A stretch of 64,000 nucleotides of DNA from Pseudomonas entomophila (GTDB taxonomy: Bacteria; Pseudomonadota; Gammaproteobacteria; Pseudomonadales; Pseudomonadaceae): positions 1,699,501 through 1,763,500 of the forward strand of contig NZ_CP070982.1 of NCBI RefSeq assembly GCF_018417595.1, in the 5' to 3' direction. Positions 47,572 to 48,721 of the stretch are shown here, piece after piece (positions within the stretch are counted from its first letter, which is position 1; the number at the start of each line of letters is the position of its first letter). Position numbers and translations under genes: made by a program. A model generated the notes under the pieces. It ran no database searches, was not told the origin of the DNA, and saw only the letters and a list, made by a program, of their open reading frames with translations.

Positions 47572-47634
47572 AGATTATTTATTGGCTCTGATTGTCACCC
47601 CATAAATAGTCTATCAATAACCAATGTATATCTC

Positions 47635-47778
47635 TTGATCTTGATCTTGATCTTGATCTTGATCTTGATCTTGATCTTGATCTTGATCTTGATCTTGATC
47701 TTGATCTTGATCTTGATCTTGATCTTGATCTTGATCTTGATCTTGATCTTGATCTTGATCTTGATCTTGATCTTGATC
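47635..47778. repeat. Hexanucleotide tandem array TTGATC x24
   Basis: 24 perfect consecutive copies, 144 bases. Each copy contains GATC. No interruptions. Confidence 0.99.
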
Positions 47779-47834
47779 CTGCTTTTAAGTGCGCGATAGT
47801 TCAGGCACCGCCAAATGCGACTTCAGGAGGCCGA

Positions 47835-48070
47835 ACGTAGGACTTGCGTAGCGGGGCGACGGGCATGGATGCCCGTCGAGCACTGATGGGCCATGGATGG
47901 CCCTTCAGTGCGTCCACGCGGGAGCAAGGCCGGAGTGAGGGAACCCCGGAGCGAAGCGCAGGGGCCGTATGAACGGAGCCAGCGGTTTTTGCCTTCTTTT
48001 GCCCGCGTGCAAAAGAAGGTCGCCGTAAGGGCGAAAAGGTGAGTCAGCGCCGCCATCGTGAATGGATATG
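47835..48070 (+). repeat. Hairpin-rich element, left copy
   Basis: Runs from GTAGGACTTGCGTAGC through CGGAGCGAAGCGCAGGG and GGCCGTATGAACGGAGC to AATGGATATG. Contains four hairpins: CGACGGGCAT/ATGCCCGTCG (47857-47878), CACTGATGGGCCAT/ATGGCCCTTCAGTG (47881-47910), CCTTCTTTTGC/GCAAAAGAAGG (47992-48019) and CGCC/GGGCG around GTAA (48021-48034). The inverted right copy lies at 48156-48359. Confidence 0.8.
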
Positions 48071-48103
48071 CTCATGAATTTCAAGGCCAGTACTCTGAAA
48101 TTC

Positions 48104-48127
48104 AAAGCCAAAGCCAAAGCCAAAGCC
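48104..48127. repeat. Hexanucleotide tandem array AAAGCC x4
   Basis: Four perfect copies in the spacer between the two inverted element copies. Confidence 0.9.
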
Positions 48128-48155
48128 AAAACTTAATAGGTCTCTACAGCTGTGT

Positions 48156-48359
48156 GCATATCCATTTGCGATAGCGACTCGAAGTCACCTTTCCGCCCTT
48201 ACGGCGGGTCACTTTTTGTCAAACGCCCGGGGCGCCGGCCGGACAAAAGTAACCAAAAAACGCTGCGCTCCATTCATACGGCCCTGCGCTACGCTCCGGG
48301 TCCCTTCGCTCCGGCGCCTTCCAGGCCCGCGCGGCCTACGACTTGCTGCGCAAGTCTAC
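48156..48359 (-). repeat. Hairpin-rich element, right copy (inverted)
   Basis: On the minus strand it repeats the left copy: GTAGACTTGCGCAGC, CGGAGCGTAGCGCAGGG, GGCCGTATGAATGGAGC, CGCCGTAAGGGCGG, AATGGATATG. It lacks the first two hairpins and has a longer loop in the third (GGTTACTTTTGTC against GACAAAAAGTGACC). Confidence 0.8.
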
Positions 48360-48505
48360 ATCTCGCGCCTTCGGCTAACGCCGAAGGGTGCTGCGCACCT
48401 GGCCCTCCAGACGCCTGCGCTCAGCCTCCTGAAGTCGCGAAGTTACGGGCGGCGCCTGGGCTGGCGTAGCTGTCGCTAGTGAATCATGTGGTGAAACTAT
48501 CTGTC

Positions 48506-48565
48506 GGCAACGGCAACGGCAACGGCAACGGCAACGGCAACGGCAACGGCAACGGCAACGGCAAC
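48506..48565. repeat. Hexanucleotide tandem array GGCAAC x10
   Basis: Ten perfect copies, 60 bases. In the frame of the following cupin gene it would encode Gly-Asn dipeptides, but it lies upstream of the preferred start. Confidence 0.98.
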
Positions 48566-48721
48566 AAGTCAGTCACCGTTACGAGTTGGTGGAAGTGGAG
48601 ATGTGTCGGCTGCACCTTGGCACGATCACGCAATCGGCCTCCCGCTTTTTCCCCGAATTGGCCGTTTGTCGCTCGCCGCCCTGGGCTTAACCTGCTGGTA
48701 CACACCACAGGAGAAGCCCTC

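Follow-up and report, generated by a model that had tools for sequence, protein, structure and literature searches.

In Pseudomonas entomophila, the stretch between a DUF1285 gene and a cupin gene holds one copy of a dispersed Pseudomonas repeat that, judging from its sequence, would place predicted paired RsmA/RsmE sites into RNA beyond gene ends, a reading that we give about an even chance of being right. The window, that is, the whole stretch of 64,000 nucleotides that was analysed (G000:C1:1699501-1763500), belongs to a genome (G000) consisting of a single contig of 5.96 Mb. Searching this genome with each half of the element located seven composites, A–G, of which the window copy is A. 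In type I composites (A–D) the ATATCC ends, here termed end1, face inward, while in type II composites (E–G) end2 faces inward. The features of the window copy, with its left half (L) and right half (R), are as follows.

47011–47571, plus strand: upstream neighbour, a DUF1285 protein gene pointing at the element.
47633–47778, no strand: left outer array, TTGATC (equivalent to TCTTGA) x24.3, AAGATC reading outward, on the end2 side of L.
47780–48071, plus strand: left half (L), running from end2 to end1, the strand bearing the GGA loops; limits from the comparison of copies.
47817–47841, plus strand: left outer inverted arm (GCGACTTCAGGAGG...), 88% complementary to the right arm.
47853–47917, plus strand: match to Rfam TwoAYGGAY (RF01731), scoring 50.2 bits (gathering score 43) over model positions 45–113 of 168.
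47858–47877, plus strand: hairpin 1, GACGGGC-AUGGAU-GCCCGUC.
47880–47911, plus strand: hairpin 2, outer stem GCACUGA/UCAGUGC, inner stem GGGCC/GGCCC, loop AUGGAU.
47992–48019, no strand: internal hairpin CCTTCTTTTG...CAAAAGAAGG, variable in sequence among copies.
48021–48033, no strand: small hairpin CGCCGTAAGGGCG, the spot at which many G116 copies carry an IS3-family element.
48103–48130, no strand: centre array, AAAGCC (equivalent to CAAAGC) x4.7, separating the two end1 sides.
48156–48480, minus strand: right half (R), the inverted relative of L; GGA hairpins absent in this genome.
48414–48438, minus strand: right outer inverted arm (...CCTCCTGAAGTCGC), 88% complementary to the left arm.
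48505–48565, no strand: right outer array, GGCAAC (equivalent to CGGCAA) x10.2, on the end2 side of R.
About 48722–49135, plus strand: downstream neighbour, a cupin gene with an inferred start codon, its reading frame remaining open farther upstream across the GGCAAC array.

The initial annotation had described three hexamer arrays around two diverged, inverted halves, and this description stands, the halves sharing 64% identity once brought into the same orientation. The two element copies lie where it had placed them, but its limits of 47835–48070 and 48156–48359 are too tight compared with the sequence conserved among copies, which spans approximately 47780–48071 and 48156–48480. Inverted arms pair the halves at 48021–48074/48153–48206 (81% complementary), 47962–47990/48256–48284 (79%), and 47945–47963/48282–48300 (95%), and the outermost arms listed above qualify as terminal inverted repeats of the kind that marks a MITE, although they sit inside the array-bearing ends, approximately 40–70 nt from the arrays. 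As far as tested, the stretch is also free of genes, as had been claimed: the two ORFs inside R matched no Pfam family, and protein coding by R was rejected on that ground; indels between this genome's copies in the ORF region have lengths that are not multiples of three.

The argument for RNA is carried by the twin hairpins of L. At the window copy, the TwoAYGGAY covariance model exceeds its gathering score, by a local and not a full-length match. Matches to this model number 51 in G116, 51 in G108, 6 in this genome, and 4 in G133, with none in 14 control genomes; those above the gathering score amount to 4 of the 6 in this genome, 3 of the 51 in G116, and 0 of the 51 in G108, and one G116 copy matches the full model (1–168). 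Elsewhere in the window, Rfam matches were obtained for an rne-II leader (28995–29366, minus strand), the RgsA sRNA (43186–43381, minus strand), and a ROSE_3 RNA thermometer (62708–62776, plus strand).

A scan for ANGGA- and AGGA-loop hairpins with a minimum stem of 5 covered 100 end1-anchored elements from other records (of 123, shorter pieces having been dropped), and revealed a complete strand bias. The end2-to-end1 strand bears 82 such hairpins, distributed over 43 of the 100 elements, 39 of which have at least two, and the opposite strand of the same elements bears none; dinucleotide shuffles gave a mean of 0.14 and a maximum of 2. The remaining 57 elements lack such a hairpin, and no GGA hairpin pair was found in R of the window copy. 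Among perfect hexaloop hairpins with a stem of at least 6, the loop is ANGGAY in 49 of 71.

The stems vary in a compensated manner. From 196 hairpin pairs over all loci, 71 distinct pairs were obtained and 67 were aligned, leaving out three truncated pairs and one with a long repeat; the sequences were selected on five inner pairs in both hairpins. In this alignment (A1), 97.8% of cells are paired versus 72.1% in shuffles, and cells with changes in both partners number 212 versus 63.7 in shuffles, a value reached by none of 500 shuffles; sliding the columns never came near the observed pairing. The outer stem of hairpin 2, which lies outside the selection criterion, is likewise 97.8% paired; four of its six pairs show changes in both partners, and of 280 variable cells 268 are paired, compared with a mean of 168 and a maximum of 196 in shuffles. 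The loop A-N-GGA-Y is retained while the stems change, as in loops of the CsrA/RsmA type. Folded as RNA, L is more stable than all 200 of its shuffles (z −4.08), and the minus strand of R gives a z of −3.24. The earlier suggestion of a structured transcript is thereby supported, and the predicted RNA structure of the L hairpins is demonstrated by this covariation. A-N-GGA-Y hairpin loops have been described as the recognition determinants of CsrA/RsmA (in parts of PMC7937890 and PMC4333381), three CsrA-family genes are present in this genome, and the shape of the loops makes binding of an Rsm protein to the L hairpins likely.

TwoAYGGAY, which resembles the present element in its two adjacent hairpins with AYGGAY-type loops, has been listed in a table of PMC2864571 as a probable RNA of gut samples, gamma-Proteobacteria, and Clostridiales, and CsrA binding has been predicted for it by motif matching, according to a portion of PMC4333381. 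It differs in that only part of its model is matched and most G116 and G108 matches fall below its gathering score, and dispersed inverted pairs, arrays, and concerted evolution are absent from its description in the portions of these papers that were covered. No description of the composite was found among the open-licence papers searched, and the DNA words of the element are absent from the sections of a paper on triplex repeats (PMC4666352) that were covered. The hairpins are therefore a known kind of candidate, and the architecture around them is undescribed as far as the literature was searched.

How such hairpins would come to be transcribed is suggested by the positions of the composites. 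With the arrays masked and a custom gene caller applied, 35 of 47 composites could be assessed, and 13 have convergent neighbouring genes, 19 codirectional ones, and 3 divergent ones, compared with 15, 58, and 34 among 107 control gaps of 100–900 nt (Fisher p 0.006 and 0.007). Divergent pairs are avoided, so that 32 of the 35 composites lie behind at least one gene. No sigma-70-like promoter was found within 47560–48730, nor, near the window element, a GacA box with three or fewer mismatches to the consensus, which makes the window copy unlike an autonomous gene of the RsmX/Y/Z type. An element RNA would likely be a read-through 3' UTR, and here it would be the end of the DUF1285 transcript, carrying L in the GGA sense. 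In 21 of the 47 composites, close to half, end1 lies outside, and RNA entering these from outside would bear first the strand without GGA loops.

The same positions would suit an element of the 3' end, whose hairpins act as terminators or protect the 3' termini of mRNAs from upstream genes against nuclease attack, as other palindromic repeats behind genes do, and the very stable fold would serve it equally well. Terminator-like sites, however, are not enriched (2 versus 1.3 in shuffles), and such a role does not require ANGGAY loops restricted to one strand, so we consider this explanation distinctly unlikely.

The distribution of the repeat identifies a recurring unit, as the initial annotation had proposed, with its seven composites in this genome and copies in many other Pseudomonas. 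The basic unit is the half, of approximately 250–330 bp and usually present as an inverted pair, and not the composite; this follows from the two arrangements, type I and type II, and from the matches to an L-half query, which number 51 in G116 and 46 in G108. Within this genome, the L halves of A–D are 96–100% alike and the R halves 96–98%, and copies E–G share a GCTCTTT centre array with another P. entomophila DNA (L099). Of 19 genomes in a first set of relatives, 12 gave a match, the own genome among them and every one belonging to the same genus, and the 6 genomes from other genera gave none; among the matches listed (80 of at least 118 stretches), all records are Pseudomonas. A model built from the hairpin alignment (R1) gave matches in 35 of the 59 genomes from the genus and, under strict filters, in none of 74 genomes from elsewhere in the class. 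Its absence from 24 of the 59 indicates that the element is not essential.

Such a dispersed and patchy repeat, present in both orientations, with outer inverted arms and a variable copy number (R1 finds 7 copies in this genome, 76 in G026, and at least 90 in G045), could also be a selfish, non-autonomous MITE-like element mobilised by a transposase in trans, its hairpins aiding transposition or guarding against transcription and any Rsm binding being incidental. We regard this as possible but rather unlikely, and mobility as the earlier claim had it did not find support. No target-site duplication was detected, the longest direct word in the 25-nt flanks outside the arrays of copies A–D being 3–4 nt, and the loci read contained no transposase with matching ends. 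A number of sites are old and common to more than one species: both flanks are shared at A with G108, G116, and G180, at B with G108 and G116, at D with G116, and at F with G133, and one flank only is matched at C (G133), E (G176), and G (G133), with G176 also having only the left flank of A in common. The plasmid and phage collections contained no match to the 666-nt composite, and carriage by plasmids or phages was rejected on that basis. Finally, transposition alone does not explain a fixed GGA within covarying stems.

Some sites are empty or hold remnants. The element is absent at site A in G351 and reduced to a remnant there in G133. Short matches confined to end1 occur in this genome at approximately 1183.8, 1773.6, 2520.2, and 3517.5 kb (G000:C1), and these four are probably remnants of decayed composites; two of the sites are occupied in G133. 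No clean target emerged from the comparison of empty and occupied states at site A in G351 and G133 or at the two G133-occupied sites. The repeat has itself become a landing site in G116, as read from its sequence, for an IS3-family element of which at least nine complete copies, 99.9–100% alike, are inserted at the identical spot in the small hairpin (L269:1214–2660 and other composites).

Copies within a genome have evolved in concert. At the shared sites A and B, the likeness between the two composites within a genome is 98–99% in G000, 97–98% in G108, and 93–98% in G116, whereas the G000 halves are only 74–77% like their orthologues in G108 and G116, between flanks that are 84–88% alike; paralogues that resemble each other more than orthologues at shared sites indicate concerted evolution. 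Of 129 comparisons over the whole set, 117 placed the best paralogue above the best orthologue (5 of 10 between G000 and G133, the closest pair); the comparisons overlap and paralogues outnumber orthologues, which makes A and B the cleaner case. The R-end arrays in this genome differ between A, B/C, and D, so homogenisation seems to halt short of the arrays. Elsewhere in the window, two tRNA gene clusters (11236–11791 and 58823–59550) contain near-identical repeated units.

Homogenised copies would also be expected of a site acting at the level of DNA, in recombination or chromosome structure, whose G+T-rich arrays foster the pairing of distant copies. RecA prefers GT-rich DNA, and outer arrays read on the inward strand mostly have a G+T content above 0.6 (38 of 41 in type I, 18 of 19 in type II). 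The flanks of one G133 composite (L244), which lie 1.5 kb apart in the P. entomophila genome, are found at two G116 composites approximately 3.4 Mb apart (4.47 and 1.04 Mb), an apparent sign of rearrangement or recombination between copies. However, this is the single clean case of exchange, draft genomes can misjoin at repeats, and exchange or conversion between 700-bp repeats that are 96–100% alike requires no special site. The asymmetry between the RNA strands is likewise unexplained by a DNA-level function, and we judge this explanation very unlikely.

The arrays had been taken as a sign of a defined unit, and they recur. The three hexamer arrays are the sole pure tandem arrays in the window (period 2–20, at least 18 nt and 2.8 units), and the chance background is low, with one pure period-6 array of 3.0 units in 400 kb of the relative G116 (20 stretches sampled). 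The window also contains, at 26707–26933, a tandem repeat of 36 nt in 6.3 copies with 92% matches. A survey of 47 composites (7 from G000, 27 from G116, and 13, a part, from G108), counting pure arrays of at least 18 nt no more than 260 nt away at assessable ends, found an array at 41 of 50 type I outer ends (period 6 in 34 of the 41), 22 of 26 type I centres (period 6 in all 22), 17 of 21 type II centres (period 6 in 14), and 19 of 42 type II outer ends (period 6 in 9). Arrays thus stand at element ends elsewhere too, and at the type I outer ends the array begins a median of 29 nt from the matched element (range 18–79). At the named loci, 25 period-6 arrays occur in 147 kb near the motif versus 5 in 715 kb elsewhere (binomial p 3.6e-15); a pure period-6 array is within reach in only 23 of 123 anchored elements, many of whose records are drafts. 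A heptamer array, CAAGCTA x19.9, was observed at L302:19202–19340 of G116, in a stretch with no element match.

The initial annotation had also held that a period shared by three arrays needs a special cause, and here the arrays point the other way. Their units (AAGATC, AACGGC, AAAGCC, AAGAGC, AAAGGC, AAGGGC, AAGCAG, and others) resemble derivatives of a single motif, AANNNC when read outward, that is rich in A and poor in T; on the outward strand T makes up 5% in type I and 2% in type II. In compound arrays one unit passes into another, as in GCAACAGCAACAGCAAGATC (G108 L294) or AAGAGC with AAGATC (G133 L252), and both unit and copy number shift between species at the same site: the left array of site A has 24.3 units of TTGATC in this genome, 5.8 in G108, and a pentamer x5.6 in G116, its right array has 10.2 units of GGCAAC versus 4.7 in G108, and the right unit of site B is AAAGCC in this genome and GGCAAC in G108. 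The arrays follow the course of microsatellite evolution, in which the unit mutates, slippage spreads the mutation, and the period stays. A period kept in this way weakens the argument from three equal periods, and the resemblance of the units to one motif points to common descent and slippage instead of three independent events. An independent origin of the three hexamers around one pair was rejected, since units at orthologous and paralogous ends intergrade with the period retained.

Several known repeats and RNAs of Pseudomonas resemble the family in part. The sponge RNAs RsmX/RsmY/RsmZ and CsrB/CsrC share several GGA loops on one RNA strand; they are single, GacA-controlled genes, according to a section of PMC7937890, whereas the sites of the present family are scattered over many loci and the window copy has neither promoter nor GacA box. 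R200 of P. fluorescens SBW25, an intergenic repeat of 320 bp with 47 copies in SBW25 and 8 in Pf-5 (table in PMC2718517), is similar in size and copy number, as compared by description and not by sequence, but that table gives no inverted-repeat structure for it. REP sequences and REPINs are, in the relevant part of PMC3116915, intergenic and palindromic, with inverted doublets, many copies, and compensatory changes. They differ by size, the GI and GII doublets of SBW25 being 71 and 110 bp apart (same part of PMC3116915) as against halves of 250–330 bp with GGA-loop hairpins here, and REPINs are linked to RAYT transposases.

A further parallel comes from KT2440, where RIP-seq, as reported in a portion of PMC7937890, found RsmA, RsmE, and RsmI all bound to intergenic RNAs adjoining ISPpu8 and to a "long palindromic region" downstream of PP_3547; in the same portion, the authors regard the bound regions as ISPpu8 insertion sites. 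Likened by that description, these regions are, as the family is, repeated, intergenic, palindromic, and an IS target, and they are Rsm-bound in vivo, but ISPpu8 belongs to the IS4 family (table in PMC3056050) and the insertions in G116 copies to the IS3 family. IS4-family copies in 12 putida-like genomes gave 8 matches in 4 of them, and neither R1 nor blastn gave a match beside the seven of these eight loci that were examined; the KT2440 link thus failed the one test made of it.

The reading that we favour, a dispersed repeat delivering paired Rsm sites into RNA beyond gene ends, would work as follows. The hairpins would be putative binding sites for the CsrA-family proteins RsmA, RsmE, and RsmI, entering RNA chiefly through transcription past the 3' end of the neighbouring gene. 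The copies could then jointly hold or buffer Rsm protein, and might in addition affect how stable their carrier RNA is. Ectopic gene conversion would maintain the likeness of the copies, and the arrays would be slippage-grown remains of an A-rich end motif and not a working part. Since the predicted RNA carries twin hairpins of the RsmA type, the family may act as a dispersed decoy for those regulators, although a sponge role of the element is speculative. We put forward only tentatively, as a doubtful extension, that the family forms a genome-wide, self-homogenising Rsm decoy, in which dozens of paired sites are kept alike by gene conversion, read-through sets the level of free Rsm, and the GT-rich arrays aid the pairing of copies.

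The Gac/Rsm system governs secondary metabolism, biofilm formation, and motility in Pseudomonas, and its output is commonly attributed to a small number of sponge RNAs. If the proposed role is correct, tens to more than 100 extra sites would exist in some species and none in others, and the titration of Rsm proteins would vary between species in a way that has gone uncounted. The family further offers a natural example of the concerted evolution of bacterial non-coding DNA, and its conserved positions, locus-specific arrays, and clear boundary between them would allow the ends of conversion tracts to be mapped. It may, in addition, account for the intergenic Rsm targets reported in KT2440.
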